From Thuidium tamariscinum (taxonomy: Eukaryota; Streptophyta; Bryopsida; Hypnales; Thuidiaceae): 64,000 nt of DNA. The notes under the pieces were generated by a model. It searched no databases, was not told where the DNA came from, and saw only the letters and a list, made by a program, of their open reading frames with translations. Positions 26,492 to 61,412 of this stretch are shown piece by piece. Made by a program: the position numbers and the translations under genes. The number at the start of each line of letters is the position of its first letter. Position 1 is the stretch's first letter. Location of the stretch: the NCBI GenBank assembly GCA_947034885.2, contig OX344749.2, positions 32,793,182 to 32,857,181 on the forward strand, given 5' to 3'.

Positions 26492-26494
26492 TTA

Positions 26495-35303: not shown

Positions 35304-35905
35304 GGGGTCATTGCATGAAACGGTGGTCCTATTCTCCGTCACAATGGAAGTGATGTAGTTATTTTCTATTAGAACTTTTGGAAGTAGAATCCTACCAATA
35401 TGAAATAATTAGTGAACATCACTAACTTGATGGTTTTCACATCCATTATTTTTGGGAAAAAAAAAAAATCAACCAATAATTATTATTGAATTTTCTTAAT
35501 TTGTCACAAACTGAGGTTAAGGGGTTTTTACTACGTTTGTTGTATCCATATTGAATGATGGTGAATTGAAATTTCTAGGGCTTCTTCGTACTTTACAAAT
35601 ACATCTTTCTTCGAAGAAGGAATCTTTAATTATTCCTTGCTTGATCCTGTAGACGCTTGCGAATAGGGGTCCCTCGTGTGCTCATTTGTGAATGGTGAAA
35701 AAGAGTTTTCCCTACTTTTCTTTGTCACGTGTGACAAGAACAAAGTTCTCCAAAATGGCCATAATTAAATTAAATTTTGTTAGTGACGCATTCATTATTA
35801 GTAATTATTTTATTGAATCTTGTATTTTCTGGTTCAAATTGGGACCTGCCACATTTGTAGTACTCCTTCGTTGAACGTAGTACTCCATAGTACTCCTTTT
35901 TGGAC
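35304..35905 (+). repeat. Left terminal region of the large element
   Basis: It starts with the terminal repeat, continues with TGGTCCTATT...GTCACAATGGAAGTGATG, later CAAAATGGCCATAATT, and ends in two AGTACTCC copies (35878-35896). The same order occurs in the short elements. The transposase-like gene begins 300 bp further in. Confidence 0.6.
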
Positions 35906-36212
35906 CCACCTACCGTCAAAACTTTACATGTGCCCTATGACATCGGCAGATTGAGCAGCCGCCTAATTTTTTCCATTAACTGCATTGAAGTCTGCATGCA
36001 ATAGGTGCGCGATGAATGATCAACGGCGGCGTAGGCGCTTCTGAAAATGAAGGCTTGCTTTGAAGTGAATTAGGGTTGTTTCTCGCATTGCAACAATTCA
36101 GCGCAAGTGTCTTCTGATTTCTGGGTTGAGGGGTCCGATTTCTAATTTTGAACGTCTAAGTTGGCTTAGAATTGTAGTTAGCGGGTACATTTGCCACAAG
36201 TTCCATACATTC

Positions 36213-39200
36213 ATGATGGACGAAGATGGAGAACAAATCCAGCAGTCGCAGCACCTGGGCGGTTTAGGGAGACCTGGTCCGCGCACCAGACAGGCTACGG
36301 AGGAAGCGCAGTTGGAGGAACAACGGGCACGAGCTCGAGATCGGCAGCGAGTGAGTTGTGCGAGGTGTGACTTCGTGAACTTCATTCAAGAATTGGCAGA
36401 AGCATCGGACAACGACTCTGCTGAGGAGGACGACGGTGGCCCTCACACCTTGTACCGGAGCACCGTCAACCGACATGCAGATCGCATCACCAACATCTTG
36501 ATAGATCGGCTTATGCATATAGACGATGCTGACCTTCGTGCTAAAGTTTTGCACAAGGTTTTTACGAATGTCCACATCCAGCCTCTACTTCCTCATTATT
36601 ACCCGACTCCAGGAAATGCAAGATCAGAGTGCCAGATCTTACTGAATATTCGTGGTGAATTGCAGTGGACCAAAAATCCTCATAATTCAGGTAAACTTGC
36701 TAGAAAACGTGCTATTCTCAAAGCTGTTGTTTCTGAATTTGAAGCAAACTTCAGCAAGTTCCACAAAATTCTTGGAACGAAGAAAGCCAATGTCATAGGA
36801 GCCGTCGAACGTTTGCGCGACGCTGCCGTCAATTTAGATTCTAGGTTACTCGTGCCTGGAAGAAGGAAACGACAAGGAGGTCTTCCTGACGATGTCAAAT
36901 TAGCCGTTGCCATGTGGTGGACCGCTGAAACCCGTGTGAGCCCCAACCGGAAGGACATCAGGCGCAAGCGACAAGGGCGTAATCTGTACGACACCCACCC
37001 AGCGCATCTTCTCATGGAGACTCAGGTTTAGAGTCATTTTCTTTTCTCTTACTTGTGCTTCCTCTTGCTTAGTGTCTGTAAGCAAAATTCGTGACGCATT
37101 GAGCAGAAATCAAGAATTTGATGTAGGCTTATACAAAGCGCTGTGAGACCCATACTGCTACATAAGTGTCATTCTTGTAATGCCCCTTCTAGAACAAGTA
37201 CCGTTAAATTCGTATAGTCCAACTACATTTTGTATACAAGTGTACCTCATGACTTTTCACAGTACTATCATGAGCTGTCTGTGCAATGTTCATTTAGAGG
37301 TGTAACAGAACTGCTTGTATGTAAGGTCTCCAATACTTTCTAGTGCAGTACTTCATGACTATATGTGTTTATTCTGGAGATCAATTTTCCCAGACTTTCT
37401 TTGACCACATCCGAAGTACCTTAGCACTTTGGGTGTCTTTGCATCCCAAATCATAGTACACTTGCGTACACCCCTTTCATATGGAGTTGGCATAGGACGA
37501 CCATGAACTTTGGTTTCGTTCTAGAAGTATTGTGCACTGCGTCCCCTATGAGCACAGTACTTTCAGTGTTCTCTAAACTTATATAGTGCCTTCATATGCC
37601 ATGTATACCCTTGAAGTTCGTGTTCTCCAACTTATACAACATTGAAAATACTGCTTACACTAGAAATGCCCAACTGTGTCAGTCCTTGTAGTACTGTATG
37701 TCCTACGGTAACGTTTTAATACTAAATAGGATTTCACTATAGTAATACTCTCTTCAGACTAAATTTGCATGTTTCGATTGGAATGCATGCTGTACTATTT
37801 CCATTCAAATGTTCTTCTAGTCAGTAGCCCTTGCATTTCTAGAGAAGTCATACTCTTTGTAGTGATACTAAAGGAAGTGGGAGTCCTATGCTAAGCAAAA
37901 CGTCGTCACAGGTTAGAACCCCACTCCATCTCCAGATGCTCTTCTGTACTACATATAGTACTGAGTACTTTCTAGTAGTACTCAAAGTACTTCAATTTAG
38001 TACTTCCTCTCCTGCACTTGGAACTCAACATAGGACTGCACGTTTTATCAGCTCAGAAGAGTACGTCACACATTCCATGTAAGTCGGAGCCTTAGAATCG
38101 TGAGGCCCACTAAGTTATTTTGCCTAATCATTTTTTGGGGTCGGGACCTGGCACATAGACAATCATAATTAGTATCTACCGTGGTGACTACAATACTCCT
38201 CAGAACATTGCATAGTACTCGGCAATATGTGCTGCAGTTTCCATGAGTATGCAGTGTGGTACTACGACAACTTAATGTAGTACTCATCAATACTACAGAA
38301 GGGTATGCACAGTATTTCAGGATTCCAGTCTGGTCTATTGAGCTCATAAAAGCGGTTAACAATTGTAAGTTGGATACTGGATACCACTGAACACAGTCCT
38401 ATAGTTAGAAAGTGAAAAAGGTGATTCACAACTTCCACACATCTTCTCCAATTTCCTTGCTACTTCATGTGCTTTTAAGAAGTAGTGCCTATGCTTTGTT
38501 TGTATTGCACAGTATTTGGACCAAAATGTTCATGGCTCAACTCTTGTTATTGCTATAACTGGTTTTGGTGGATTTCTATAGAAACTACTTTACGACCGTT
38601 TCATTGCAGCCCATCCTGAGTGCGTCCTCATGAACCGATCTTTCTATGGTTTACGGCCTTTCTTCGTCATCAAGTGCAAGGAGCGTAACGTCTGTTGCTG
38701 CCAATACCACGTGCAAGTCCTATTTCTATTGGAGGCGCTCAATGCTTTTCGTGATCCACGATTTACAGCACACTTGCTTGTTGACTATCATTGCCCATGT
38801 TTGGTCTGCTGCATCTTTGATGGACAAGGCTGCCGTCTTGGACAAGCTCGCTTCCCCGGTGTCACCACAATGTGGGAGTCCATGCTGTGCGTGAAGCTTG
38901 ATGACTCAGAATTTCATCGCCCCCAATGCTTGCTTGGTGAATGTGATACTTGTGGGGTTGCTACTTTCAGCGTCTGCCCACAGGAACTGCTTGATTCACC
39001 GGGACTCATGATACAGTGGAAACAATTCCAATATGAGGTAGTTGGAGCATCAACAAATGGCCGGCCAAAGAAACGCATAACGGAGGTTTTGAAAACGACA
39101 ACCTTCTCTGACTTCATGTTGTTCTTCACACCCACCGTGGAACGCTTCATATGACACAATTTTGAGGCTCGTTGGCAATCAAATCAAGCAAAGCTTCTCC

Positions 39201-40878
39201 GAGAATCTCTGCAAAGTGAAAGCGTTCTTACCCACATAGACTTTGCTGAGAACTACACTTTCCAAGTTCAAAATGAAATTCAGTCTATGTATTTCAGTTC
39301 CACACAAGTCACTATTCTTGTCCAAGTTACCTACTATGCTGCTTTAAGCTTGGGAGATGTGGAAGAAGATGCTGACCTCATTCAGGAAACCCATTATTAT
39401 ATATCAGATGATAGGAGCCATGATACGTTATTTGTACAGCATTGTTTGCTAGAGCATTGGAGGTGGTTGCGATCCCAGAAGTTCAACCCAATCAATCACT
39501 TTGTCTTCAGCGACGGCTGTGCAGGTCAATTCAAAGGCTGTCGAGCTCTTTACTTTGCTACAAGGTTGTATGGCTGCCTCAATTCCCTATGTGCCTTAAA
39601 ATTTGTTTTTATGAGATCTGGCTACATGTTGCACTAGTTTCTGTCTTCATCATTTTGCTATATAAAAAAATTTGCACGACTAGGCATTCTGTAGTCTACA
39701 ACCCCAAAGATGTATGGCATTGACTCACAGCATTCTACATTGCTTGTTTGCCTTATACACGATAGATATCCTTCTCTCACTGGAGGGTGCAAAATGATGT
39801 GGAATTTCTATGGATCCGGTCATGGAAAAGGAGAATGGGATGGTGTTGGTGTTGTGGTGAAAAGAACCTTGCGTCCAGAACAACTTCTGAATCCACAACG
39901 TACTCTGCAGAATGCAAGTCAATGCGTGACATTTCTTGAAGAGACACTAGGTGGCCAAGTACCGAACACAAGAGACCGACTCAGGTGACATTCCACTCTG
40001 ACTTCAACCGTATCACTATCCACCCAATTGGGACTAAAAGCTATTGTGGAAATATTGTTGCATGGTATTAGTTTCAATTCATTTGGCAGTCCATTCCTTA
40101 CTGTTACATAAAAAAGAAGGCAATTTCTCCCTTGTACCCATGTTTGACTGACCCTCCGTTTATACTGTTCTATAGGTCGTTCCGCTACTTCCACCACGTA
40201 GCCACTATTGACGTGGACCGGAGCAACCAACATGCATGTGACAGAATTGTTGGATCATCAAAATTCCACTCGGTCTTCGCTAACGACAGGAATGACCCAA
40301 GAAAGCTGTTGGTTAGAGAACTATCCTGCTTCTGTGGCCCATGTCTGGAAGAAGACTTCTGTAAGTGTGAAAATCAGGACTATGTTCATCCTTGGAAAGT
40401 AGTGAAGATTGAAGGCCGCAATGTGGAATTGGGACCTAACCAGACGATGTTGGAAGAAGGAGAAGACAATTGGGACTGGGATTACACAGGAGATACTATG
40501 GCTGATTTGGTGCAAGCAGGGGATAATTTTGCCGTCCCAGCACTACCTGACAATGACGAAGGAGTTGCTTTTTACATCTTGCAATGCTAGAGCCCAAAGC
40601 GTGTACTTACAGAAAACCTGCATTGCATTTGGGGAGGGGAATTTGAAGTGGGAGACTCAGTTCTCACGGGAACTTACTATCAGAAATGGGGGTGTAGAGA
40701 GATGCAGAACTACGTGTACCTGAGGAACTCACAGGTGGCGCACATGGATGCAACCACAGTTCTGGCGTGCAAGTTTCAAATGATCCTAAGACAGCACCAA
40801 GTGAAAGGTGGCCATCGAGTGTACACACTGCCTGACGAAACAGTGGATGTCATCCACAGCGCCCTTGATAGTTTGTGA
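36213..40878 (+). pseudogene. Transposase-like gene with two in-frame stops
   Basis: The model is join(36213..37025, 38582..39564, 39766..39984, 40176..40878), 906 codons, all GT-AG with agreeing phases. The only lesions are TGA at 39152-39154 (between VERFI and HNFEARW) and TAG at 40588-40590 (after FYILQC). I recognise a large uncharacterised family, found in animals and mosses, by CLLGECDTCG, THIDFAENYTFQVQNEIQS, FVFSDGCAGQFKGCRALYF, MMWNFYGSGHGKGEWDGVG and LSCFCGPCLEEDFCKCEN. The invariant Asp/His residues suggest an RNase H-like nuclease, but that is inference. The N-terminal 270 residues hold CARCDFVNFIQELAE and a basic region PGRRKRQGG. Both stops could be single C-to-T changes (CGA to TGA, CAG to TAG). 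It faces the SET gene convergently across 9 kb. Confidence 0.7.
37026..38581. repeat. AGTACT-rich intron 1 of the transposase-like gene
   Basis: This 1.56-kb intron contains many AGTACT palindromes and one-base variants, densest at about 37960-38010 and 38200-38300. It has no coding potential. The motif is also dense at both ends of the element and in its other introns and spacers. Confidence 0.6.
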
Positions 40879-42371
40879 GGTACCTTCCTGTACTTGCGAA
40901 GGCAATGCGTGTCTACATAGGCTTCTTCACTTGGTTGCATCCCATTTCTCTGCACTGACCTCTGACCATGTTCAGCTCCATATGGAAATGTTCATTTTCA
41001 TTAACTGAAGTGCATCTATGTTTCCTATGACAATGACCTAGTCTGTGCAGTCCATGCAATATGAGAAAGTTTTTGATACAATCCCATGTTCAAAATGTTG
41101 TACAGGGCCGAAGTTCTATTGGTACATGTTCTATCATCGAAGATGCAATTTTAGAACATCAGTATGTACCTATCATCAAAGATGTACGGTAGGTGAGCAT
41201 CTAATGAAGCTGATTTTGGTGTCGGTTCCTTCAGATCCCCTGCGAGTTGCATACTTTCGTGACAATTTTGATACCCAGCGCTTGGCTTTCACGTGGTTCC
41301 AAGGTATCCATACAGAACCTTAGGAAGCACTTTGCTGGACTATAAGATTTATATTGATTTGTAAAGATTTTTCGTTGTTAGAATTAACTTTTCTATGCTC
41401 AGTTGTAGGTATTGGGTCCTGGGCACATTTTTCATGAACAGAGTTCATTCAATTTTCGTGATCTGACTGTTTTTAATTATCTCATTATCGTTTGATTTGC
41501 ATCAGACCATGTGAGAAGTTGGAAACCCTCTCGGCAAACCAAAGTACATATTATGTAGTATGTTTCTTATGGAATGGGGTGGTGACGTGCTGTTGCAAAT
41601 GTCTCAATAGTTGTTTTCTTGACTAAGTTATAGATGCCAACTTCATTTGCTGTCTATAAGGTATTAGTTGGGGTATGTTGCTATGGGTGTACTGCACAGA
41701 AGTGTCCCCCTATTTAGAGTTGATTTGGTTTACAAAATCCCAAATTTATGGAAATCTATTTGAGATGGCTTGTGTTGATTTTGTATTAACAAAATACAAA
41801 ATATGGAGTATTATTTTTTGGGTCTTGGGTTGTACATATTGAAGATCTATAGAATAAGTAAAAAAATGAAAAAGCAACTCTCTTAGATTCTGAAATCGAC
41901 TGATGACTATGGTCAACAAGACTTCAATCCATGAACACCATTAAATTTCAGTTCACTAAGAAGCCTACAAATGTCAACAATGCCACAATCCCTCTCTAAA
42001 GTGATAACCTTTGTAATGTTATACTCTGCTTTTGGTTTGGGGGCTATTATCTTGTGGAAGTTCTATTGTAATAAAAATAGAAGTGTACAATGCCTACCAA
42101 TGAAACTGAAACCTTCAATTAACCAAAAAAGATCAAACTATGAGTGTGATACATATCAATCAATCAAATCTACAACTATCCTAAAAGGACAAGACTGTGA
42201 ATTTGCAATACCTATAAATCTTTCCAATAACCCCAACAACTTCCTATGAGGACAAAAGTATGTAATGTAAAGAATTCAAAGATTTCTTTAAAATATAATA
42301 GAGAGCTTAACATCAATGCTCTAAGATGTGCATTAGGAAGGTTGAGATTTCTTCCATCTTGCCTTCAACAT
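40879..42371. other. 3' region of the transposase-like gene, AT-rich spacer
   Basis: No second gene is visible. Short frames at 41045-41323 and 41971-42249 have no recognisable features. Confidence 0.5.
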
Positions 42372-43113
42372 AGGGTAGTTGCAAGAAAGGATGGTCCTAT
42401 TTCTTGTCACAATTCGAGTTGCATCGTTTCTTTTAGCCATATCTTTTGGAGAACAAAGTCAATGGACTTGAAATTTTTATTGAAGATGACCAACTTGTTG
42501 ATGAAGAGAATTCCTATTCTTCAGAGATTTTCAGAAAACTTTATATAATTACATTCTAATTTGGCTTATCTGTCACACTGTGCGATTTAGGGGGTTTTAG
42601 TACTGACATGGAGTATCCACAAATAATGATGTAGAGCTAAAATTTGTAGGGGCTATTCCCGCCCTACAGATTTATGTGCCCACCAAAAAAAAATATATAA
42701 AAACATTAGAATATGGTGTCCACATGCACGCAAACAGAGGTCCCTTGCGTGCGCTATTCCAAAGAGTGAATATGGTTTTGAATTTATTTCTTTGATAAAA
42801 TATGATCACCATAAAGTTTCCACAAATGGCCAAATTTTAGGGTTTTTTTATTCATGATTTTTTATTTATTATTGATTTATACATCATTGTATCCATTTTT
42901 TGTGACCATCTGCATTTTTTTGATGAACACTAAAATGCCAGTACTAAAAGTACTCATAGTACTCAAAACAGTACTATTAGCCGTTGATTTTTTGGATCAA
43001 TTGCTGAGACTGTTCCATTTCACTGTACTAATAGTACTCGAAGTACTAAACAAAATAATGACAGATTTGGCTAAGCGCTACAAAAATCGTTCATCCTTTC
43101 TCGCAACAGCCCT
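42372..43113 (+). mobile_element. 742-bp MITE with termini of the large element
   Basis: Imperfect terminal inverted repeats are AGGGTAGTTGCAAGAAAGG at the left and, on the other strand, AGGGCTGTTGCGAGAAAGG at the right. The interior has a left part like 35304-35900 and a right part with several AGTACT copies (42940-43050), then GTAGCGCTTAGCC on the minus strand. It lacks coding sequence and looks like an internal deletion derivative. No clear target duplication. Confidence 0.7.
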
Positions 43114-43430
43114 AGATTTGTAACTCGGGGGGACACTCCCCACATTTTAGAAACACACTTGCAGTGGAATATGTAATACATGTAATACACCCTAAAATTT
43201 AATTTTTTTGGGAAACACAATTATGAAAAGATTGTACTACTTTTGAAGTTCATGTTTTCAATAATTGATATTTTTTTAATGCTAATATTAATTTGTTATG
43301 CATTTTGAAAGGAAAAAGATACATTGTAAAGCTGAAAATAACTTTCACATCATAGCCTATATTATATAAGGAAAAAAATTAGAAAAATGAAAAGAAAAAT
43401 TCCATAGAATAGCTTTCTATTGAAAGTTTA
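43114..43430. repeat. Segment shared in inverse orientation with 49019-49320
   Basis: It begins AGATTTGTAACTCGGGGGGA and contains ATGTAATACATGTAATACACC. The same sequence appears inverted and diverged at 49019-49320, next to the other MITE. Confidence 0.7.
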
Positions 43431-44959
43431 TTTTGGTTGAATATTGATGCAATAGTCATCTTCATGTGATCTCTATAAATATTTTAGTTGAAAAACATGC
43501 CATTTTAGTTCATTTTTCAACCCTTTCTAAACAATATATCTTATCTTATTTGGAACTAAAATTTCTATCAATAGAAACCTTTAGTCATTGTTAAACAAAG
43601 CTCAAAATTGTAGGATGAAATTAAAGTTAATTCAAAAGTAAATAGGGGGTCAAATAATCTCTTTGCTGCAAGTCGGTACCCCAAATGCAATGAGAGCGTC
43701 CTCCCTAAGATTTGTAAAGAACCACCAAAGATATAGCACTAGCCAAATCTCCCCAACCAAAAGTAGGCATAGCACTTTGTAAAATCAAAGGATCTAATTA
43801 AATTTGAAAACATGACACATCACTTTTCAACCCTCAATCCTTTGAATTGCTTCAACTAAGTTAATAACTCTTGAACAATCAACCAATGCAAGGAAAACAA
43901 AATTAGAGCACCGCAACAAGCAAACTTTGAGGAACCTTAATTCAAAAGTGCTAGTCATTCCAACTTCATCTACGATTTCTATTAACCAAACAATTTGTCA
44001 TTCACTACACTTCAAACCCAATTGTGCACCCAATTCTACATACGGATTTTTATAAATACAACCCAAAGGATCCAAAAGATCATACTAAATTATATGTGCA
44101 AAATACTAATGTCTCAAATTTGGAGGCAACCTAAATTATGTATAATTGATTTGTTGCTTTCAATGGTCCCTACCTTATTTGTAAGTGTTTTTTTTTTAAT
44201 TTTACAGGAAATGAATAAAATGCTCTGTATATTTAGCCACACATTTCTAAAACGTCATAATTGATCCTAAGTAATTTGCAGATATTTACAACTATTTAGT
44301 ACCCAAAAAATGCATTTGAAGGTAAATTTGGAAGAAATGGTCCTCTAGTAGACTTGTACCTACCAACAAAAGGAATTCCAAAAAATTCTTACTTCAAATA
44401 TTTCAGAGGACTAAGCATGAGTATTCTGAAAATGGAACAAAATCAATATAGGTTTTCCTTGCAATCATTCTGGAATTGTCTTCATGTGCAAGCCCCTAAA
44501 TAAATGGCTTAAATAAATGGCTCATATAAATGTTAGTAATTCAAACCTATATATTAGGTGGCTTTTTTATATTACTCAATGTTAAAAGGTGACTACAAAT
44601 TGAAACTTTAATTATAATTTCTAAAATGGAATAAATGAACTCCCTTATAATATTATTAATGAAGTCATATATTTATGTAATTAAAGACTATGAGTTTATT
44701 TTTTGCAAAAATATCAATCATTTGAAATTGAACTTGCAATCTGTTCAAAGCTGAAAAATTACTTACATCAATAAATTTTTTATATTTTTTATGAAATGTC
44801 ATTCCACATACTGAAATTCTAATTAGAGCTACGCTTTCCCCTTCACAAAATATGACAATCAATTTTCAACTAGGAAGATGGAAATTTTCAACACGTTGCC
44901 ATATAAATATTGAACTACATAATACATAATGGTTGACCTTAGTCTTCAAATCATTGTCT

Positions 44960-44994
<35 letters not shown>

Positions 44995-45330
44995 TTTTCA
45001 TACTTGAATGTAATAATATTGATATAATTTCAAATAAAAGAGTCTCTTGATTGTTTTCATATGCCTTCATATATAAGCTCATGAATCAAATAATCCTGAC
45101 AATGCAATTACATAATATTGACAAATCATAAAGAAAATTACTTTGCATTTAGTGATGGCCATCATTTACAAGTGCATTCTACATTGGTGCACTTAGGTTT
45201 TTAGAAGTTGTGATAGGGCTCTAAATGTTTTACAATTTATAGATGAATCAGCTTCCGAGGATAGAGAGACTTCAGACTCTTCTAGTGACAGGGATTCTGC
45301 AACATAGTCTATTGCAAATTAGAATCCTAA
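43431..45330. other. AT-rich non-coding DNA with an (AT)n run
   Basis: No gene is visible. A simple (AT)n microsatellite lies at about 44958-44994. Confidence 0.55.
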
Positions 45331-45637
45331 TGGGGAATTTCGTTAAAATGGCGGTATTCCACATGCCATTTTCACACCTTGACATCTAGGACAAGTATAC
45401 ATTGCTAATATCTAGGACACTTTTAGATTTCTGAAATCTATGACAAGCATAGATATTAGACCAAACAATCTAAAAAATCTAGGATTGGTATAGATTTCAG
45501 AAATCTAGGAGACTTGTAGATTTCCAAAATCTAGTGCAGGTGTAGATCCTAGGATAGAAAAACGGTTCAGACCGTGCAGTCTGAACTGCTCAAAAGCGCC
45601 AATTTAACGAAATGGCGCCATTTTAACGAAATTTCCC
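45331..45637. mobile_element. 307-bp MITE with 7-bp target duplication
   Basis: Terminal inverted repeats of about 22 bp (GGGGAATTTCGTTAAAATGG at the left; GGGAAATTTCGTTAAAATGG on the other strand at the right) enclose a non-coding interior made of short ATCTAGG-type repeats. ATCCTAA flanks both sides (45324-45330 and 45638-45644). A 7-8 bp duplication suggests hAT or a Mutator relative. Confidence 0.82.
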
Positions 45638-46580: not shown

Positions 46581-46586
46581 ACCTTT

Positions 46587-47080: not shown

Positions 47081-47083
47081 TTT

Positions 47084-47178
47084 TTAATTAAAAATACAAA
47101 CGTTGAAATACTCCTTTTTTGGGACATGTAGAGCTGTAGGTAGAAAAGGAGTATTTCAACGTTTGTATTTTTAATTAA
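47084..47178. repeat. Perfect 35-bp hairpin
   Basis: Arms 47084-47118 and 47144-47178 are exact complements (beginning TTAATTAAAAATACAAACGT) around a 25-base loop. Confidence 0.9.
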
Positions 47179-48283: not shown

Positions 48284-49018
48284 AGGGTTGTTGCAAAAAA
48301 GGGGGAACAATTTTTGGAGCGTTTTGCCAAAACAGTCATTTATTGGCTTAGTACTGCGAGTACTATTAGTACTGTGAAATGGAACAATCTCAGCCGTTGA
48401 TCCAAAAAATCAACGGCTAATAGTACTGTTTTGAACACCATGAGTATTTTTAGTACTGGCCTTTTACTGTTCTTCCAAAAAATCCAGATGGTCACAAAAA
48501 AGAGATTCAATGACGTCTACATTAATAATAAATAAAAAATCATGGAAAAAAAAAAAAAATTTGGCCATTCGTGGAAACTTTATGGTGATCATATTTTATC
48601 TAAGAAATAAGTTCAAAACCATATTCACTCTTTGGAATTGCGCACGCAAGGGACCTCGGTTTGCGTGCATGTGGACACCATAATCTAAATTTTTTTTTTT
48701 TTTTTTTTTGGTGGGCACATAAATCTCTAGGGCGGGAATAGCCCCTACAAATTTTAGCTCCACATCATTATTTGTGGATACTGCACAGTACGAAAAAACC
48801 CTAAATCGCAAAGTGTGACAAATTAGCCAAATTAGAATTTAATTATATACAGTTTTTTGGAAATTTTTAAAGAATAGGAATTCTCTTCATGAACAAGTTG
48901 GTCATCTTCAATAAAAATTTCAAGTCCATTGACTTTGTTCTCCAAAAGATATGGCTAAAACAAATGATGCAACTCGAATTGTGACAGGAAATAGGACCAC
49001 CCTTTCATGGAACTACCC
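48284..49018 (-). mobile_element. 735-bp MITE with termini of the large element, inverted
   Basis: It matches 42372-43113 on the opposite strand over its full length with many differences. Ends are AGGGTTGTTGCAAAAAAGG at the left and, on the other strand, GGGTAGTTCCATGAAAGGG at the right. Its AGTACT cluster is at 48350-48460. It is non-coding. Confidence 0.72.
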
Positions 49019-49767: not shown

Positions 49768-51160
49768 TCAGATTCCCCTACAGAGCTCACTATTGCAGCT
49801 GCAAATGAATGGTGTTCCATCTTCATTGAAGTCAATGCTATAGTCCCATGTCAACTCCTCCCCTAGAAAAATAAGTCGGCTTGCGAAGAACGCCACCTGT
49901 TGCAGATTTGGGAAACGTCGTTAGTACCATGTGCATTGACAATGCTGTGGGGAACAGAACTTCCATTGAATTACAGTCACAACACTTAAGGTTTGTGAAC
50001 TTGCATGATACAAAGCTGGACTTCTCCTGTCAATCCACACTGCCATGTCCATGACATTTGCGTCACCGCATCTGCATCCACATTCAGTGCAAATCATTTA
50101 CTATTCCCCAATCATTTCATTGTTGCAAGTAAATCAAACTGAAAGAGGTAGTTCTTCAAGTAATACCTATGATTTAACCAACGGGCAACGTTCGTGAACA
50201 CCGTTGAGTCTATGCATAGGAGGGAGTTGTCGTCCTCAGCTGCCTCAGTCTGCCAATCTGCTGTCAAAGCCAGAGAATACTTCAGTCGATCACCTCGTTT
50301 GAGTAACTCTGCATTGGTGACCACCTCTCTTGCATATTCAAACAAGAAGTGTCCTGGTTTCAGGTACTGTAGTGTGCGAATGCCCCATCCTTTCTGCTTG
50401 TTCACATAAAACACCTGCATGCATTGGACAATTAGAAGCGGTCAGTTCTTTTCTCATCTAGGCCATGTAGTCATAAGTGGAAGGCACTGAAAGAGTTGTC
50501 AGAGTCTACTCTCACCTGCAACTTCGCTGTCAATCCTCTTTGAACAACCCTGTTTAGACAATTCGGTGAACAAGAGCATTTGTTGTTGCACTCGCTGATG
50601 TATTTGAGACGCAGATGGCCTTGGCACTTTCCATTAAGGTTCTCTGGACAATTTGCCTTTCCACTACAGTAAGTCAAACTTTTTGAACTTCCTCGCTGTC
50701 GGCTTAAGTACTGCACAGTCCCACACACCCAACCCCATTAGTACTACTGTGAAGTGTGAACTGCTGCTAGTAGGAGGGTGCAATAAAAGTTCAAATACAT
50801 GGTGCATACATGTATACTGTGGAAACGCACCTCCTTAATGTATCGAGGCTGTAGAAGGCCTGAAGTGAGGTAAGGCAATTCCTGTCCTCCCAACTCACAG
50901 ACACATGTTGTAGCCTTCTCAATGCACCTGCCATCATGTTGGTCAGTGTGTACCACGTCCCCGATTCGCAGTGGAGGGAGCGTTTCCACAGTGACGGAGG
51001 AATGGATTCCGGGCGACTGGATATAAGTGAAGGAGTCATCAAAAGCAGGAATATCGTTTGAGGCTTCACCCTCAGGCACAATAATCGGGATGCTTTCGAG
51101 ACCTTTAGACAAGTCAAAATGAAGGACAGTACGATCCCCCTGTTCCAAAGACCTTATCAT
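49768..51160 (-). CDS. SUVR-type SET-domain histone H3K9 methyltransferase
   Basis: The model is complement(join(49768..49896, 50005..50071, 50167..50414, 50516..50710, 50831..51160)), 322 residues with consistent phases. SUVR enzymes transfer methyl groups to histone H3 Lys9 and repress transposons. Visible parts are: a pre-SET start (RIGDVVHTD, CIEKATTCVCELGG), where the first Cys pair of the family is missing; a Cys-rich pre-SET (ISECNNKCSCSPNCLNRVVQ); SET motifs GWGIRTL (184-190), NHRCGDANV (256-264) and EELTWDY (293-299); and a post-SET CSCNSELC (312-319). Intron 4 appears to be GC-AG (donor GCAAGT after 50005), since only this rebuilds YHVAFF. The start ATG (51160) is uncertain. An upstream exon could instead join it to the gene ending at 51681, whose last exon has a good donor (AAG, then GTGGGT). 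It lies inside the putative large transposon. Confidence 0.8.
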
Positions 51161-51680
51161 ATACAAGGCAATAGCAAACTTACAATAGGAAGTACTTCAA
51201 AAATGGAAGACAGTACTGTCTATGGAAACCGTACATGTACAGACTTTGAATTATATAATAACAACAACATCCACAGACTTGTAGAAGAAACACATACCAT
51301 TCGTAGCACAATTGTATTAAAATAGTGAATCATACAATCCGATTACAAAAGAGGAAACCTCTACTGCATCGCGTGGAATACGAGAACTTCGTGGGACCCC
51401 ATGGCTAGTTGAGGCCTGCGCTTTCGCCTACGGCCCACACATTTCCAGTGGGCCATCAACCACTCCATAGGCCCACATTGACGTCCAGAGAAACTTCAGT
51501 GCCACATCCCATCCGAGACCAGCTATACTGGCTTCGGCCTACTAGGGTCTAGTGGATGCTGAGGCTTCCTCAACGTACTGTGGTCGTTACAAAATAGAGG
51601 TGCACGTAAACCACTGCAATCAAAACATGGTGTAGAAAAAACCTTTGACATAGACGCCGTACTTCCATTCTGGAAGCAAG
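51161..51680. other. Spacer between SET gene and the unknown gene
   Basis: It contains a GC-richer stretch at about 51360-51600 with no convincing reading frame. AGTACT occurs at 51191 and 51213. It may be promoter, or an intron if the two genes are one. Confidence 0.4.
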
Positions 51681-54600
51681 TCACTTCTTACCACCCACCT
51701 TGCTCTTCTTTGGTTTTACAGGACGTTGAGCTGGTGCTAACGTAGTCACTGCTGTCGGAGTTCCTGTACTGTCGCGTGTACGAAGTACTCGGGAAGTTGA
51801 ATCGTCAGTAGTGGCAACAGGAGACGTTGTTTCCTTCGCTGTACAAAAGCAGATTGGGAATTAGAAGCATTTGCTCGTTGCAAACTACTGAAGAAGAGTA
51901 GAGAACAACATACGGGCTGTAAATCACAGTAACAAATACTCTTTACCAAGACATGAGAACTATAGTCGCAAATTTCAAACGCTAGTACGCACACAGTATC
52001 GACATAGTACCCTATAGTATCCACTGACACCCATATAGTACTCAGACAGTACAGACGAAGTACTCATGCAGTACCCTATAATATCCATTGATATGCATAT
52101 AGTACTCATACATTACAGACGTAGTTCTCACATAGTACCCACTCAGTTCTATAAAGTGAGGGTCATTTCATCCAAGAAGTACCCACGTTGTAGACACATG
52201 TCAACCTAGGTCTGCCTCACATTACCACCCTAAACCTACAGAGCGCACGCACAATGAAGAAGTATTGCATCAGAATGCAGGATCCTTCAAAACATCTAAA
52301 AAGAGCTTATCCTGCATTACGAAACCCATTACAAGTGTATCAGTGGAAGAAGGCAAAAAAACTGAAATTGAATAGTAGGAAGGACATCACTTACAATCAG
52401 AAGTAACATGACCAGGGACTTTGGGAGAGGGTTTCTCAAAGCGCACTGTATTAGCAGTATCGCCCTCCTGCGCAGGTAGAGGTGGTGCATGATGCTTTGA
52501 TTCATCGTCGGTCTTCTTCAAGCGCTTTGATGGTCGTGGATAAGTGAAGGAATAAGGATCTTCAGTACCCACGCTTACCTGAACTCCAGTCTCTTCAATA
52601 ATTGGATCAGCTGACTGAGTTGTTGGGGGCAGCAAGGGTTGTGCATTCTATACACAGTGAGCATTGAAATTTCATAAAAAATAGAAGCACAATCAAAACT
52701 TCCTCTCTTGCACACCGTAGAGCATGTGAAAAGGAGGACTGTGGTACCGAAATTCAAACGAAGATGAGGTAGCAATACAGTGAAAGAAAATGGAAGTCTG
52801 CCTTACCTCAGAAACTGGGAACGCTGCGGGCATGACATTAATGCCATGATCATCGCATTCCATGTCCTGGTCATGAACAATTCTGATAGGAGACTCATGC
52901 AGCAGTGGGTCGGCGGGAGGCAACTTCAACGCCGAGTCCTGAGCTTCTGTACGCCTATTCGGTCCAACGCCACGCACTACCTCAGTAATATCAGTCGGGT
53001 TTGTAAGAGGGAGAATATCCGTTGCTTGATTTCCCTCCTCAGAAGATGTCACAAGGCTTCTTGTATGCGATGTCGTAGTTACTGTACCTTAATTTGATCC
53101 AAATGGTTTGTTGGAGCCTTCAATGTCTGTATGCGGTGTTGCTGCTTTACCGTGTGCTGTACCAGCGGGTATCTCCAGGTGTTCAGTTGTCCCAGCGGCC
53201 TTCAAGAATGTGCTGTCACAAGTAGAGAAGCTTGGAGCACCATCACCAATGTTCAAAGACACTGCACATGATACATGAAAACATATGACAAAGAGTACAC
53301 ACGCATGCTAGAGCAGACATCTTGTAGAACTTCAATGTTAGCATGGACCCAGAGAACCCCAGATATGATGAATGAAAGACAAGGAAAGCACAATGAAGAC
53401 TGAAGTTGTAGAAGATTAGTGAATACCTGTAGGTGTATTTAGTGTGGATGCTCCTTGTACCATACTGGTAGTGCCAGAGTCGCCATCTTTGTTAATGTCA
53501 CCTGCATGTATGGAGAGAAGTTTTTCGTACTACCCAAATCCCCAACTATTGTACTAAGCCTTCGAAACAAGTCCACACGTTGGCACTACACAAGTGACAT
53601 TTTTTTGGAACCACTGAATTGCACACCAAGGATGATAAACATGTTGGCAGAAGGAGAGAATGATGTCCTACAGTGGAAAAGCATCAGAACAAATACAACA
53701 TACAAGGGCTAAGGGGAGGGCAGCTTCTTTGTTGTTGACGACAAGTAATTCATCATTCTTGTGTACTGGGAGTGGCCTCATGAAAACATTGTCCTTTCCC
53801 ACGGACAGCTCCTTCAAATATGCTTCCAACGCGGAGAGTCGACTGGTGCACGCAATTCGCATAGCATGAGCTCGACTGAGGGACTCTTCACATGCTGCCT
53901 TGTTTGTTGCATAATTGGACAGTTTCTTGATGTTTGAGTAAAACATCTTGAACATGGGTCCAATGCCCACTTGAGCCACTGCAGCAGCGATTTCTTCTTC
54001 GTCAGCTGTGATAGAGCACTCTTGTTCAGCCTCCAGCAATGACGCCTGTATTTGCTTAACAACCAATGAACAGGCCTCCCATTCGAGGGTTGCTTTTCTG
54101 ACGTCTGCCTCCATAATAGAAATGTCTTGGTTTAAGTCTTGAAGTTCACTTTCAGTGATTGCCACTAAGTTTGTGACGTCATTCTTCCTGCATGATAAAT
54201 GTATGGACAACTATTAGCGCTCATAGTGAAGTGGCGCAGAAGGTTTCACTATTCAGACCATGAGAAGAAGTGATGCAGTCGGCAAATTACAGAGAAGTGA
54301 GAGCACTCAAAAGAAAGAACTCCCCGCGACAGGACTCTTGCTATAAGAATGCAGTCTTAAAACAACTGAATGTAGTACTCATAGTACCTCTTAGTACTAC
54401 CAAGAAGCCAACAGTGAAGGATAGTACTACATGAGGTAGTACTACATAGAAGTAAAGAGAAATGTGCACCTGGAACTAATGCGCGGCTGTCCTACATGTA
54501 CTAAAGTGTAGGACAGCTAATCGTGTATACATGAAAGTGTGTAGCAGTAGACCAACTGTGCAATGAAGGACTCATACTACAGCATTCAAAGACACGAAAG

Positions 54601-57600
54601 ATAGTGCAGGTGTTCTCTAATCGGCAACAGCTGTGGGCGCTTTATTCCCACCCTTGGAATAAAGTGTACACAACCAGGTTCTACTCTTTTATGTGTGATT
54701 CCTAGTGGGTGTCTAACTTACGTGTGATCCAGTTACGCCTTCCAAGCAATGGATCTTTCTAATTCCTACTCCTAATTTGTCTATTGGCAATCGCTAAGTC
54801 GATTATCCTTGGGTTCTAAGAGTTAGCCACTTAGCTTCCACACTGGTGAGTGATAAAGGTCTATCTATCGGAATCAATTGAGTGTCTTTAGTTACTTCCT
54901 ATTCCCTCAAGACCTAAGTCTTTGCTAAGTTTTTTCCCTTTCTTTGGTTTTTTTCCATTCTAAGATATCTTTTGGGTAATTCTATTCCTATTTTGTCCTT
55001 GATGGGCTTTCATATAACTGATGATGGTTTTGACTAATCTTGGCTATTTTTGGATAAAATTGGAATAAGTGAATTGGTTTTGGTCAAGAAAGGAATAATT
55101 TTACCTTTGCAAAAGTAAAACCTCAACTTTTGATGGTGAGGTAAACGTGAAATTCTTTAGTAAATTTCGACCGTTAACTGGTTCATCAAAATTACCTAAT
55201 CGAATTCCTTTTTACCGAAGAGTCCAATCCTTAGTTGACTTTTATCTTTGGTTTTTTATCCTAATTCAACTTCTACCTTTTAAATCCTTGGGTAAAATGA
55301 ATTTTAAGTAAACTTTGACCGTTGTCCGGTTCTCCAAAATTTACTTATTTCTTGTTTTTACCTTGGAAGTGCTTTTTTGGGTTTTAATCTTCTACTTCTA
55401 CTTCTAATCAATTGTCTAATTTTCTAAAACTTAAATCTTCCAACCTTGGTTTAATCTCGAAAATATTATTGGTTTGGATTATCTTTGGAATGTTTGTTCG
55501 AATTGTTATCTTTGTTTTGGAAGCAGAACTTTCCTATGCTAATTGATTTTGCTTAATTCTAATTGAAAAAATAACCTAATTGATACGTTGCCTAGACTAG
55601 AATCTAATTTGGATAAAATCAAAAGAAGGGTAAATGAGAAAATAGGTTTAAGAACTAACCTCCAACATAGCAATCTCGGGGTCTTCGTGTTCTCCCATCA
55701 GTTCTCCACGCGGCGCCAATTCCATCTCCATTTTTTGTGTTTTTTGTTTGAATACCGTTGAATGGGGTATTTCCCTTCAAAACCTCCTTCCTTTACTTAC
55801 CTTTGTTTTGTTTTTGTTTTCTTTATCCTTCGAGCTTCTTCTTTCCCTTTTAAATAATCCCCAAAGTCAACCTATAAAATATCCTAATAAAATCTAGTTT
55901 TTGAAATTAACCATTAAATGGTTTTGAAAGTCAATCTCACTACAACTAATGTTCTCCAACTTTTCTCTAAATTGGCAAATTCTCTAAACTACTCAAAGTC
56001 AACTTATTCTTTTATTTGTTTTTTTCTATTTGTCTTTTTTCTTCTTCCTAGGCTAGATACGACACAAAAGTCAATGATCCCCTACTTGGGCCTAACTCCT
56101 TCTTCCCAACTTCAATGCTTGCATATCATTCTACTTCCGCACTTGCTTAAGGACTTGTATTTTGAGAGATGAGAGTTTGCGTGAGATTGCACTGAATTGT
56201 TGGAGGAGAGCGTGCTGGAGTTGGAGTCTGAATGTTGGTGGTGAGGCTACTGGGTAGCCTGTTCTCAATGGGCTGATTTGAATTTGAACCAGCCTTGCTT
56301 GGTCTAGTCCTGATCTCTCTTCAATTGAACCCGCCTTGCTGGTCTGTCCTGATCTCTCTTCAAATTGAACCCAGCCTTGCTGGTCTGGGCCTCTGTGGGC
56401 TGATGTGCTCAGTCAACCCAAGTTGACTTTGTTTTAAAATTCAAATTTTATAGCATCCAGCTACTAGCTGGTCTGGCCTCTCAAATTTCAATACTCTGGA
56501 ATTTTCTACTTGACTGAATTTGGCTTTGGGCTAACCTGGCTTGGAAATCTGGGTTTTTGGAAGTCCTATGATCACTCAACAACCTTTCTTTCTTCTCAAA
56601 AACTCTCCCTGCAGTTTAATCTAATTTTTCCCAATGCAAAATTATCACTAAATAGTTTTTTCCCTCTTTCTCTCTCAACCAGTTGACACCTGGTGTTCAA
56701 AAAAACTCTGAAAAAACAAAGTGGGGGCCCTCAAGCATCATCCCCAGTAGTGATGGTATGATGGAAAAAATTTGGTTTCATGGCCTGGCTAAGTGGCCGT
56801 ATGGTCTGGCTAGGTGGCTGTATGGCCTGGCTCAATAACCAAGCTTGACTGATGCCTCGCTGGCTGCTTGGCCGACTGGCTGCTGGCCGAACTGGTTGCT
56901 TGGCCGAACTAGCTTGCTTGGCCGAACTGGCTTGCTTGGCCGAACTGGCTGCTTTGTCACCAAATTCTGGCTGTTGCTCACCAAACTTTGGGTCTCCAAT
57001 TGGGGACCCCTTGACAAAACAAAACACGGAATTTTACTTAGGAAGTCAAAGCTTCGCCATTTGGCAAAATAATTCTAAAAAAATGTTTAAAATTTGGCGA
57101 TAGCTTCGCCGTCTAAGGAATCTCACCCGTGTTTCTTGGAGAATTTGGCAAGGGGTTGCCTCCCAAGGAATCCCCAAGAGTTAGAGTTTCCTCTAAACAC
57201 AACTTTCGTGGATCACAATTCAACGGTTAGGCCCGGGGGGAATTCTCAATAAGCCTATCCAGGCTGTAAATTCCCCGAAGAGACTAATCACAAAGGATTA
57301 TGATTTCAAAATTGCAAGAGTCACAAAATGACTAATACAAAAGACACAAGGAGTTAGGAGAACCCCCAAGAGTACACAAGGACTCCCAATAAATCCCCAA
57401 CAAAATGCTTCAATAGTTGAAGACAACTTGTAATGACAAAGGTGGTTTAGAAAATACCAACAAAGTTGGAGTAGCGTGAAGGTGAGCACACACGCCCTTG
57501 GACTTGCAATATAGTAATCAAATGACACTAAAGAAGGATTGAAGAATGGCAATAGAAGATGGTAGTGTTTGATGTTTGAAAATGATATTAGAATGATAAG

Positions 57601-60169
57601 AAGTGTAAGAGTTTAGAGGTGTGAAATGAGGGGAGGGGGAGGCCTTTTATATGTTTCCAAGGCCTCCTCCCCCCTCAAGTTACGAATAAAACTAACTAAG
57701 AAAAACCCAATTAACGAACTAAAAATCTACCCTACTGCTGTAGCAATTCTATCTTTTGGAGAAATGGTCCGATCGCCAAACGGACAGCGCCATTAGCTCC
57801 AGAAGACCCAAATTAGTCTAAAGGAACCCCTACCCCTTACTCTCGGAACCCAAATGTGCTCCAAAGCTAACATTCACAAACCGGTAAAAAGGGTGGAAAA
57901 TCTATCTTTTGGAATTGATTTTTCCCAAAGGTTTTGACTAGTCCAGGTTGTTGGGAAGGTCCAAGAATGTTGGAAAAGAGTCTAAGTTGACCCGAATCGG
58001 ACTCCGTATGCTCCCCGTGCGATGGTCAACTCGCAAGAGTTTTGGTAAAAAACCTAGAAAGTTGTTGCCGCCGCTGGTTCTGGTACTTGCCACTATCAGA
58101 ATGTCTTGAAATTTGGCGGGACTCTTATTTAGGCTAAAACATACTATCCTAATTTTTTAGTGGGATTTTACCATCACCGTGGAATTTTCCATAAATTTCC
58201 AATTGCCGGTAAAAGCGGTTGACTTCCCATGGAGTCAATTCCGTAATCCAGAAAATTACGAAACTTTTAGGGGATCTTCTAGGAAGTCCCCTAATGACAA
58301 GTGCAAAGTTTCACCAAAACCCCACATTGTCTAACCAAAGCAGAAATTGCACTGTGGCGGAATTAATTCCTCCGGGGAGGAATCATTCCACATGAGGGAA
58401 TCTTCACCAGTTGGCTTCGCCATGACGCCAGTAGAAGACTGTTGGACTCCCGTGGTGCTAGTATCATTTCTTGTGAATTGCGTAATATCATGTCTAATCT
58501 CCCGATAAGTTGTAGAAATTGGCTCTAAGGAGTCTTTTAAGGTACTCTAAAATATTTAGACCCAATTCTCCTTCATTGACAGGAATTGTATCAATCCTAC
58601 TGTGAGCACTCTTTTTAGTCGTTTTTAACCATAATTACCCTAAATACGAGCAATAAGCGAAAAAAAGAAAAATCCGAGGCCTGAGTGACAAAGACGGGGC
58701 TCACAGCAGCCAGCAGAAAGAAATTCTGTAGTACTAAAGTAGTTTGCTAGGACTTCCACGGACAGTGCATATTCAACATGACTGTTGAGTGTGTACTAAA
58801 GAATCCTACATGTTACTACTCAAAGGACTAACACAAAACACACTTCCACATATAGTATGTTCCAAAGACAAGAGAGTAAGGCACCTGTTAATTAAGCATC
58901 CGAATGTGACAACTAGCACCATACATAGGAGAGTGATGAGAAGAAGCCAATTTTGGCTAAGCAGCAGAGAAGAAGAAACGTAACCACTGCTTCAATAGTA
59001 CCTGCAGTATCGAATACAGTGAAAGAATCACATCATGTCCTATTTCTAGTAGTCAACCTGACAAGGTTCAAATGTATATAGAAGGAAGATGAAATACCTG
59101 ATATGGAGGGTTTCAGTGTCATGTCCACGAACTTCAGCAACGGGAGGACGCATCTTCGTGTGGCCTATGGATGCACCCTCGAGAGCTCCATTAGAATGCA
59201 CATCTCCAATTCCAGACTTGTCACTAGGATAGAAGATGTAGTCAGTGAAATCTTTAGACTGGTAGACATTGATAGCTGGTACATTCCGTAAAGTAGCTAA
59301 GGCTTCGATCCACACCTTCACTCTTCGACAGTAGGATTGACGCTGCCTAAAATTAGTTTCACTAGCAAAGTCTGCCCAATCCACGCTCTTGTGTTGAACC
59401 TTGTCCAAGACCACACCAATGGCAAATTCCTTCGCTACATGATTAGGTGCCATACTCTTCTGGTAGCACAAACAGTACAGCTGTTGTGCCTCTTTCCTCA
59501 TAACCTTCGATAGCTTTTCCGTCAGAAGAAAGCCGTTTCTGCTTTTCTCTTTCCCGAACACTTCCTCGACTTCTTCCAGAGTGATGTCCTTCCCGATTTT
59601 CATGCGGTGGGTGTTGATTCCTTCGTGGGGAAGTTTGAACCGAGATGCAAACATGTCTGCAGTCATGGCTTCGGGGGGGCGCTTGTCATCTGTGCTTAAG
59701 GCTGCCAATTGCTTCAAGCATTCCCACTCCGTGAAAACTCGATCTGCTTTCTCTTGTTTCTTCTTCTCACGTCGCTGCTCAGAAGGGGCAATACTTGTTT
59801 CTCGCTCATCCTCACTGTCGGCTTCACCGTCGGAGACTACCTTCGTAGGTGAAGTCAAATTCCCAGATGAAGAGCTCCCGCTAGCAGACTGCTCTGCTGT
59901 TGCCTTCTTCTTGCATGTGAGGGAACCCTTTTCTCTCGAGGACTTCGTAGGAGCCGCCAAGGCACCTGTAGCGGTCACATTGACCATCTTCTTCCTCTTC
60001 TCGGTACCCGAAGGTCGAGAAGGCGCTGCCATGGACGAAAGACCCTTGTTGTCCATAACTTCAGTGGCAGAACCCTTTCTCCCATCAACCGAAGGCGCAC
60101 CTTCCCCACCAGGCTTGCGTGCCCCTCAAAAGCTACCTTGGGCCGCACTGATTTCTTCATTTTAGCCAT
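51681..60169 (-). CDS. Multi-exon gene of unknown function with coiled coil
   Basis: I do not recognise this gene. Supported exons on the minus strand are: 59098-60056 (or from ATG 60169), 53704-54187 and a last exon 51681-51838, with low-complexity frames between at about 53090-53280, 53430-53510, 52810-53052 and 52397-52650. The first exon is Ser/Lys-rich (KRKK, EKKKQEKADRV) and then has a folded-looking part (FTEWECLKQLAAL, GFLLTEKLSKVMRKEAQQLY, YCRRVKVWIEALATL). Its end (AG) joins exon 54187 in phase, giving HIRKNDVTNLV. That exon is a coiled coil (LQDLNQDISIMEADVRKATLEW). The last exon ends KPKKSKVGGKK, a possible nuclear signal. The N-terminal frame from 60169 switches frame at a GGG run near 60120, and a stop follows KPFGSN near 53095, so the gene may be damaged or my exon calls may be wrong there. 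The intron 54188-59097 is 4.9 kb. Confidence 0.45.
54188..59097. other. Long intron or insertion of unknown origin
   Basis: The sequence from about 54640 to 58640 differs in style from its flanks: it is TTTGGTTTT-rich, lacks AGTACT and has no open frame of note. AGTACT-rich DNA resumes at 54360-54500 and 58720-58800. This suggests a 4-kb inserted element, but I found neither LTRs nor terminal inverted repeats. Confidence 0.4.
56765..56965. repeat. Minisatellite of GGCCGAACTGGCTTGCTT-type units
   Basis: Around five units of 18-25 bp (CTTGGCCGAACTGGCTTG and variants) follow TGGCCTGGCTAAGTGGC-like units. The Ala/Ser/Lys/Gln-repeat frames on the minus strand are translations of this array. Confidence 0.75.
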
Positions 60170-61299
60170 ACTCTGAATCCAAAAGACAACAGTAGTTCAA
60201 AAAAGAGGGGACTTGAACATGACCTACAGTGCACATGGCGAATTAGGCGACTAAACCCTAAATCTGAATGCTTAGGACATGTAGGATTGCATAGAAATGT
60301 CACGGGAGCCAAGACTAACATCGACATCCACAAGAAGACATTCTAAGTGGCCCACGGTGGCTCCAAAATGGAAAATGAGTATGTGACCCTCATCGGCAGT
60401 AATGACAATGTGCCAAGAACAAATGCCAATAAGAACATGCATTTCTGGGAAAACAGGGAGCACTACAGTTGTTACACAATGGAATTGTGAAGGGGAGCCA
60501 GAATTACAGAGCACGAGATTGCTTACCAAATCAGAAGACCTGCAACGCCGCTCAATCGGGAGGAAGATGAACCCTAAAACTGAAGCGTTCTTCTAGTCGT
60601 CACAACTGCCGATGTTTGCAATCGGCCACCTCACTTCTCTGGATGGCATCGGAAAGAAGCGTCCACACTCCAAAGCAGCATCCTCCGCACTTCTGATCAG
60701 CAGCCGTGGCAATCTTCGTTCAACGCGGGAATCGGAAGTGCAACAAATGCAATCCTTCACCAACTCACTTCCACGCACTTCATGAACATCTTCTCGTTGT
60801 TGTTGCACTCGCTGAGGGGACCCCTACGACGTAGAATGGAGATAATTCCAATTCCGCTGCACCCCTCGACCACTCCCTCACGCAATTCTGCGTTAGTTTT
60901 CCGTCACAAATTGAAAATCAAATTGCTACATACGAAATCGGCACTCCGCTGAACACACTCAGGAGACCTCCACGGAAATTGACCTCAGTCGACGTAAAGC
61001 TCTCACGATCGCAGCAAACAGCGAAATGAGATCGGAGAACTGTGCAAGCAAAAACTGCCATTTTTTTTCAAAACTTCATCCACAAGCAACGAAACATCCA
61101 TCCATCCATCCTGAAAATGAACGAATGAATGCAAGTGGACGAGGCAAACCTGACAACTTTCATCCACTAAATGTCGACGTGTCTTATTAAAAAGCTGATG
61201 CGACTCATAAGTGCACCCCATCGGGCGGCGACATTCAATGCTGAGGCCACGGCCCTCTTGAACACGCGTCAGTCCCACAGGACATCTATAACGTGATCA
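60170..61299. other. Upstream region of the unknown gene
   Basis: This is probably the promoter and 5' UTR of the minus-strand gene and the subterminal region of the large element. Short frames on both strands (60272-60529, 60593-60808, 61003-61278) have no recognisable product. Confidence 0.4.
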
Positions 61300-61412
61300 A
61301 CGGACTACATTTGCCACCTGTAGTACCCGTAGTACTCATAGTACTCCGGGCCGAAAATCCAGAAATCTCATAAACGCTACGCAAAACGAACACCATTTCT
61401 TGCAATCACCTT
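61300..61412 (-). repeat. Right terminal region of the large element
   Basis: Read on the minus strand from 61412: AAGGTGATTGCAAGAAATGG, then a TTCGTTTTGCGTAGCG stretch, then a cluster of AGTACT (61317-61346). The right ends of the elements at 42372 (minus strand, from 43113) and 48284 show the same order: terminal repeat, GAACG/GTAGCG, AGTACT cluster. Confidence 0.6.

Follow-up and report, generated by a model that had tools for sequence, protein, structure and literature searches.

A SET methyltransferase is joined with a DNA transposase in SETMAR of primates, which is a single domesticated host fusion gene. In oomycetes, the association is found in mobile elements, as the Phytophthora transposons HarbingerS and MuDR/MULE-Phytophthora_1 encode a SET histone methyltransferase (Kojima & Jurka 2014, as cited in PMC12730594), and a table in PMC6446971 gives "SET for 14 members". 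Fungal DNA transposons are described as carrying TET/JBP dioxygenases (PMC12730594), and the VANC proteins of Arabidopsis VANDAL/Hiun elements as binding short motifs in the non-coding parts of their own family's elements (PMC5735166, PMC10398659). A plant DNA transposon with a SET gene was found in none of the titles or abstract openings listed by our searches of open-licence PMC papers. Here we describe a SET-bearing DNA transposon of the moss Thuidium tamariscinum, located at 35305..61411 in a window of 64,000 nucleotides (assembly GCA_947034885.2, contig OX344749.2, positions 32,793,182 to 32,857,181, forward strand); positions given without a contig are those of this window.

The element is a cut-and-paste DNA transposon, with inverted ends of about 25 bp and target duplications of 4 bp. 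Its pre-SET/SET gene probably derives from a plant SUVR gene, and the analysis supports SET as belonging to the core of an entire group of elements, not as casual cargo of one. Our best joint explanation, to which we assign a probability of about 0.5, is that this is a transposon with a SUVR-derived SET gene and that it encodes a motif-guided chromatin modifier.

Paired ends and copies of the element

The complete copy in the window (35305..61411, plus strand, 26.1 kb) is defined by paired ends, collinearity with other copies and a target duplication. It starts with GGGTCATTGCATGAAACGGTGGTCC and ends with TTTCTTGCAATCACCT, and TGTG is present on both flanks (35301..35304 and 61412..61415). The terminal inverted repeats (GGTCATTGCATGAAACGGTGGTC / GGTGATTGCAAGAAATGGTGTTC) lie at 35305..35329 on the plus strand (GGGTCATTGCATGAAACGGTGGTCC) and at 61387..61411 on the minus strand (reverse complement, AGGTGATTGCAAGAAATGGTGTTCG). 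A first-pass annotation of the window had proposed a giant DNA transposon here, with limits that proved correct to about one base.

To place this copy in its genome, 300 bases of each end were used as queries against 363 Mb in 19 contigs. Among the 40 left-end candidates scored out of 1154, 8 places had 98-100% identity and the other 32 had 79-82%, and the whole-genome search with the right end gave 9 places at 82-100% and 15 further weaker ones. Eight intervals pair both ends in the same orientation around the same genes, with target duplications, and all eight are collinear with the window across 35305-61411. Seven of these copies are 21.1-21.7 kb long; the window copy is longer and contains a private insertion of 4,079 bp (54625..58703), which is not part of the element, has minisatellite-like repeats and holds no reading frame above 104 amino acids. 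The 4-bp duplication is exact in seven copies (TGTG, AAAA, ACAT, TTGA, TTGC, TTCC, TGGA) and agrees in three of four bases in the eighth (AGCC/AACC). The 30-base flanks on either side are distinct in every giant copy, and no sequence is common to the duplications of the giant copies and of the short elements described below. A giant DNA transposon in eight copies, with common inverted ends and target duplications, is thus what the genome contains. A nested insertion specific to the window copy could have explained its AT-rich middle (42-50 kb), but this was rejected, as the region is found in all eight copies with smaller gaps.

The interval had first been recognized by the likeness of its two ends to short elements at 42372..43113 (plus strand) and 48284..49018 (inverted, minus strand), both of which are old members of the same group and are present in all eight giant copies. 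For the left end, this likeness was borne out, with 193/261 and 197/258 identical positions and scores of 56 and 79, whereas 300 block shuffles reached at most 36. For the right end it was marginal (scores 32 and 27; shuffle maxima 28 and 29), and what is common is limited to the terminal ~20 bp, a CGCTAC box and AGTACT. That the ends might be two independent short elements was rejected, since both are paired in eight copies. Fourteen of the 32 weaker left-end places were fetched: 13 end in TTTCTTGCAATGACCC at 734-736 bp, each with a perfect 4-bp duplication, and the right end was not found in the remaining one. The short look-alikes are a 734-736-bp non-autonomous family with giant-element ends. 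Both short elements within the window copy are older and, by eye, have no matching duplication.

The giant copies form two lineages, A (window, C3, C6, C2a) and B (C2b, C5, C1b, C1c). Lineage B resembles copy C3 at 94-98% in the transposase half and at 81-90% in the half with SET and a further gene, X; copy C5 is A-like on its left and B-like on its right. These unequal identities and the mosaic structure of C5 point to recombination or conversion between the halves. The ninth right end is on contig C6 at 13.877 Mb, with a left end absent among the matches listed. Matches to gene X and to a coiled-coil exon of the element (86 and 91%) were observed about 44 kb from that right end, with transposase and SET absent among the matches listed, and this region (13.831-13.878 Mb) may be a disrupted ninth giant copy.

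Transposase and SET as core genes

The genes named in the first-pass annotation were all recovered, namely transposase exons on the plus strand and a SET gene and a coiled-coil exon on the minus strand. The probable first transposase exon (36213..37028, ATG at 36213, provisional 3' limit) is followed by a core-exon stretch from HIDFAENY to FSDGCAGQFK (38409..39596), which has two stops in the window copy, an exon with GHGKGEWDG, the third acidic motif (39767..39979), which is open in all eight copies, and a C-terminal exon, ELSCFCGPCL...FCNCENQDYVHPW (40186..40875). HID(F/Y), FSDG and HGKGEWDG are the conserved core motifs. The core is open at full length in four of the eight copies, and a fifth, C3, is open with a 15-base loss; every tested exon, a set that leaves out transposase exons 1 and 4, is open in two of the eight.

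Neither the single transposase exons of the window copy, exon 1 included, nor the transposase gene of a giant copy matched Pfam. A core alignment of seven members gave just two chance-level Pfam families, one member each, and no MULE or Harbinger domain. Similarly, the profile search of PDB gave no match, and no relatives were present among 170 viral and 46 prokaryote contig pattern matches. In the exons read, nothing pointed to a viral origin, although no search aimed at viral origin was made.

The distribution of the two genes across the genome was determined by searching with two transposase cores and two SET proteins, which gathered at least 136 transposase and at least 130 SET places. In the first transposase set, 98 of 319 candidates were scored and 2 of 100 matches, both small second pieces, were dropped; in the second, 118 of 384 were scored, and removal of 9 second pieces and 78 places already counted from 125 matches left 38. 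The first SET set (130 of 464 scored, 186 matches) lists at least 102 places after repeat exons were dropped, and the second (129 of 354 scored, 193 matches) at least 28 after duplicates and second exons were dropped. Some elements appear twice among the 130 SET places, and three of the places resemble host genes.

A SET match was located within 25 kb of 98 of the 136 transposase places listed, as compared to a mean of 3.3 and a maximum of 8 in 200 trials of random placement on the same contigs; this union count supersedes an earlier 75 of 98. In every one of the 98 cases, SET was downstream of the transposase on the opposite strand, at a median distance of 5.0 kb, and this convergence spans families down to about 40% identity. 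Seven of the 15 weaker right-end matches lie 9-34 kb downstream of a transposase and end at the same query base, judged by eye, as expected of true right ends. These results define a large, old group of elements, the usual core genes of which are a transposase and a convergent chromatin gene ending in pre-SET/SET. The SET gene had initially been noted as an unusual cargo. An H3K9-group SET gene is indeed carried, H3K9 being lysine 9 of histone H3, but it is a core gene of the whole group and has oomycete precedents.

The 38 transposase places without a SET match include 12 with gene X downstream, convergent and within 40 kb, by a gene X list that excluded the eight giant copies and second pieces; the other 26 (e.g. 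C3:45381826, C1:31894948) have neither gene listed. Ten of these 26 contain open frames of 600-662 amino acids with 43-47% identity to the C11 query. They could represent a SET-less transposase clade, which would provide a natural comparison.

As read, the SET gene has five minus-strand exons and 314 codons: exon a (50831..51138), where the pre-SET region starts with HFDLSKG and the 5' limit was set by hand; exon b (50516..50710), with the second pre-SET cysteine cluster; exon c (50167..50414), with the SET domain from GWGIR to NVARWLNH; exon d (50005..50071), RCGDANVMDMAV...YH, with a GC-AG type donor; and exon e (49768..49896), which runs from VAFF through EELTWDY and CSC to LCRGI and a stop. 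All eight giant copies agree in exon lengths and, save for an acceptor in C3 and a donor in C5, in having intact internal splice sites. Five copies (window, C6, C2b, C5, C1c) retain an open frame. The ratio of nonsynonymous to synonymous change (dN/dS) was 0.24-0.37 across all 16 between-lineage pairs.

Pfam detected SET (E-value 3.2e-15) and Pre-SET (9.2e-6) in giant copy C5, and likewise in the related L055 family of elements (4.7e-20, and 2e-8 with 35.2 bits). The giant copies and L055, which are 42% identical in SET, both retain the NHRC, YH, EELTWDY and CxC...C motifs. The best PDB matches of the SET protein were the H3K9 enzymes EHMT1/2, with SETMAR also among the matches, and its predicted assignment to the H3K9 group is supported by this comparison.

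The SET genes of two element families were further compared with one host gene, a SUVR gene on contig C1 at 43.26 Mb, upstream of which a WIYLD match lies at a distance of about 4 kb. Host and element SET are 37-42% identical. Three intron positions are common to the host gene and the giant copies (one following LQ, one inside the NHR codon and one following YH), the third being seen from the host donor, the only part of that site inside the fetched piece. Two other host-like SET matches are single open frames of 606 and 630 amino acids. No WIYLD was found in the elements: the whole-genome search gave one match, at the host gene (positions 34-60 of 61), although an intron-split or diverged domain would escape it. 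Because WIYLD was seen at the host gene alone, we consider the element to have a SUVR-derived SET rather than a full SUVR protein. The common introns are consistent with the SET gene having probably been captured long ago, introns included, from a host SUVR gene.

Gene X, AGTACT arrays and a possible role in chromatin

Reading inward from the right end, the minus strand holds gene X, a coiled-coil/RING exon, linker stretches and the SET gene. The gene X exon (59043..60196) begins MAKMKKSVRP and contains a conserved block, WECLKQL...LRNVPA; Pfam gave no match to it in copy C5 or to its pieces in the window copy, where it is one base short and has 13 stops in the frame read. The coiled-coil exon (53419..54210) has a weak RING-like zinc motif (zf-RING_2, E-value 0.002 and 18.8 bits in copy C5, cut-off 27.3), and in the window copy it has three stops and one weak Pfam match. 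Between this exon and the SET part, 52696..53307 is open in copy C3 and probably represents one or more linker exons. The open frame of SET exon a contains no start codon from the last upstream stop to the domain, so that further exons must lie upstream. It is likely, judging from this arrangement, that gene X, the coiled-coil/RING part and SET encode one long protein.

The non-coding parts of the element are rich in AGTACT. Each giant copy has 40-45 sites, as compared to 5-6 expected from first-order Markov shuffles, and in copy C3 just 2 of 41 sites are in the listed exons, which account for 35% of its length. In the window copy, they include a left subterminal cluster (35859..35894, three sites), a cluster between transposase exons (37261..38284, 11 sites) and a right subterminal pair (61331..61345), upstream of gene X and 66-80 bp short of the element's end. 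Between the lineages, 21 of 26 non-coding AGTACT sites in the middle and right parts are kept. Their flanks predict 41-43% (p = 8e-5 and 3.5e-5), and the figure for all hexamers is 44-47% (p = 5e-4 and 1.6e-4). The triple array AGTACT-N3-AGTACT-N3-AGTACT occurs at 100 places in the genome, as compared to one for a reversed control. Of the 50 listed among these 100, 18 lie within 8 kb of a listed element gene (random mean 0.4, maximum 4), including seven in other families, where the array is at the right end or immediately beyond gene X. The remaining 32 are not near listed element genes, and some of them may be short elements.

Taken together, these features suggest how an element-encoded chromatin modifier might be guided. 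Gene X, the coiled-coil/RING part and SET would form one nuclear protein, which would recognize the AGTACT arrays in introns and subterminal regions and methylate histone H3 on element copies, most likely at K9. The element would thereby gain sequence-specific control over its own chromatin state, in the direction of either self-restraint or interference with host silencing, and we lean slightly toward H3K9 methylation of its own copies. In its most specific form, in which a single protein binds the arrays of its own copies and deposits H3K9 methylation, so that the parasite, too, sets its heterochromatin, the proposal is tentative and well short of even odds. The first-pass annotation had raised control of the element's own chromatin or of that of its host, a role that is here putative.

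Several observations weigh against a motif-guided modifier with a SUVR-derived SET. The SET frame has stops in three of the eight copies (one each in C3 and C1b, two in C2a), and within-lineage dN/dS ranges from 0.14 to 0.99, on few changes. The giant-copy Pre-SET match, at 26.6 bits, is under the Pfam cut-off of 29.1; its first cluster keeps three of the five host cysteines (two in C5), as compared to five of five in L055, and L055 keeps just one of the three common introns, the second, in the NHR codon. AGTACT is also in excess in the 37.9 kb of the window outside the element (13 sites, 6.3 expected), and 11 and 6 of 336 hexamers seen at least 8 times were kept better than AGTACT in the two comparisons. 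Short elements carry the motif as well (three sites in L043), and 11 of the 18 gene-near triple arrays are in giant copies, at the internal short elements (42940 and 48350 in the window copy). Without those internal elements, just 13 sites are left, of which 10 are kept (flanks 32-35%, p = 0.001-0.002; hexamers 44-46%, p = 0.016-0.025).

Because AGTACT is also in short elements, it could be a transposase-binding site that spread via nested short elements, with SET acting on something unrelated. In addition to the triple arrays of the giant copies, 13 of the 26 middle and right sites are inside internal short elements, as this explanation expects. Against it, some AGTACT clusters between exons (37261-38284, 50740-52106, 54374-54443) lie apart from both the ends and the short elements, and the 13 sites outside short elements are still kept better than their flanks. 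We regard a transposase site as possible, at rather less than an even chance.

It is also conceivable, if somewhat doubtful, that the SET protein serves in counter-defence, disturbing host silencing, for example by competing with reader complexes or with host SUVR/SUVH proteins, and thereby keeping copies active. Tested or proposed anti-silencing roles are described for other transposon-encoded chromatin proteins, VANC (PMC5735166, PMC10398659) and the fungal TET/JBP enzymes (PMC12730594), and the loss of two first-cluster pre-SET cysteines with the SET motifs retained fits binding more than catalysis. Pure competition, however, would not require the catalytic motifs, which are kept in the giant copies and L055.

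An unlikely alternative is a role of the SET gene in the choice of insertion sites, in which either methylated chromatin or the SET protein itself leads the transposase to tolerated targets. Contig C11 (17.5 Mb), which might be a sex or accessory chromosome, does hold 19 of the 136 transposase places, as compared to 6.6 expected by length, but such uneven density may stem from loss instead of targeting, and the 4-bp duplications have no common sequence. Finally, chance neighbourhood with host SET genes, or a SET gene that is functionless passive cargo, would fit the stops in some copies and the 26 transposase places (of 136) near which neither SET nor X was listed, but this very improbable explanation is contradicted by the constraint on SET (between-lineage dN/dS below 0.4, unchanged exon lengths) and by the downstream, convergent arrangement in 98 of 98 cases across families down to about 40% identity.

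Genomic surroundings and known systems

Host genes in the window are PP2C phosphatase pieces (5996-7992) and, beside the element, a chlorophyll a/b-binding protein gene (33149-33970), which marks the genome as that of a photosynthetic organism and, together with the SUVR gene, of a plant. The window also contains a near-perfect inverted repeat (14140-26498) with arms of ~6.05 kb, at about 14140-20187 and 20451-26498, and a 263-bp spacer. Each arm has a PIF/Harbinger-type frame pair, and the one arm scanned matched DDE_Tnp_4 and a Myb/SANT-like domain. This palindrome either arose by recent inverted duplication or is a fold-back artefact of the assembly. Related SET-bearing elements at C1 42.905-42.934 Mb and C3 12.642-12.675 Mb occur in mirror-image pairs with equal match identities, which suggests large palindromes resembling that of the window. 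A GC-rich minisatellite with a 31/62-bp unit (28906-29194) lies near retrotransposon-type gag/pol frames at ~29.9-30.8 kb.

Among transposase superfamilies, Sola is, by description, the leading candidate for this element. Sola transposases are described as DDD, with which the three acidic motifs of the element are compatible. The candidacy is based on the 4-bp target duplication, as given for Sola2 (PMC3627910), and on a moss record, the listing of Sola1 for Physcomitrella (PMC9033089).

The layout of the element, an element-encoded chromatin protein together with short-motif arrays in non-coding parts, resembles that of VANDAL/VANC as described. VANC, in contrast, is the anti-silencing protein of a MULE and not a methyltransferase, and its motif is YAGTATTAY rather than the putatively bound AGTACT. 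The fungal TET/JBP transposons (PMC12730594) similarly tie an epigenetic-mark enzyme to DNA transposases, but differ in removing the mark, in their transposases and in their fungal hosts. With SETMAR, the element has in common the joining of a SET methyltransferase and a DNA transposase; SETMAR is not a mobile family with the SET enzyme as a core gene.

H3K9 methylation usually targets transposons, and here a whole group of transposons has retained, across long divergence, a SUVR-derived methyltransferase gene of its own. Transposase-SET elements beside conserved motif arrays thus offer a test case for self-regulation and for the exchange of chromatin enzymes between host and parasite, and the element could supply a compact, possibly sequence-directed histone methyltransferase. 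The closest parallels are the oomycete SET transposons, in which a SET methyltransferase gene likewise adjoins the transposase in a DNA transposon. Unlike HarbingerS, the Thuidium element has a transposase without a Pfam match, though Pfam detects a Harbinger-type transposase elsewhere in the window, and unlike MULEs, for which longer duplications are tabulated (9 bp for several groups in the table of PMC6446971), it makes 4-bp duplications. By description, it further differs from the oomycete elements in its plant host, the host-SUVR introns of its SET gene, its 21-kb size and its AGTACT arrays. SET-bearing DNA transposons were already known from oomycetes, from which the present elements differ in transposase, host and scale.

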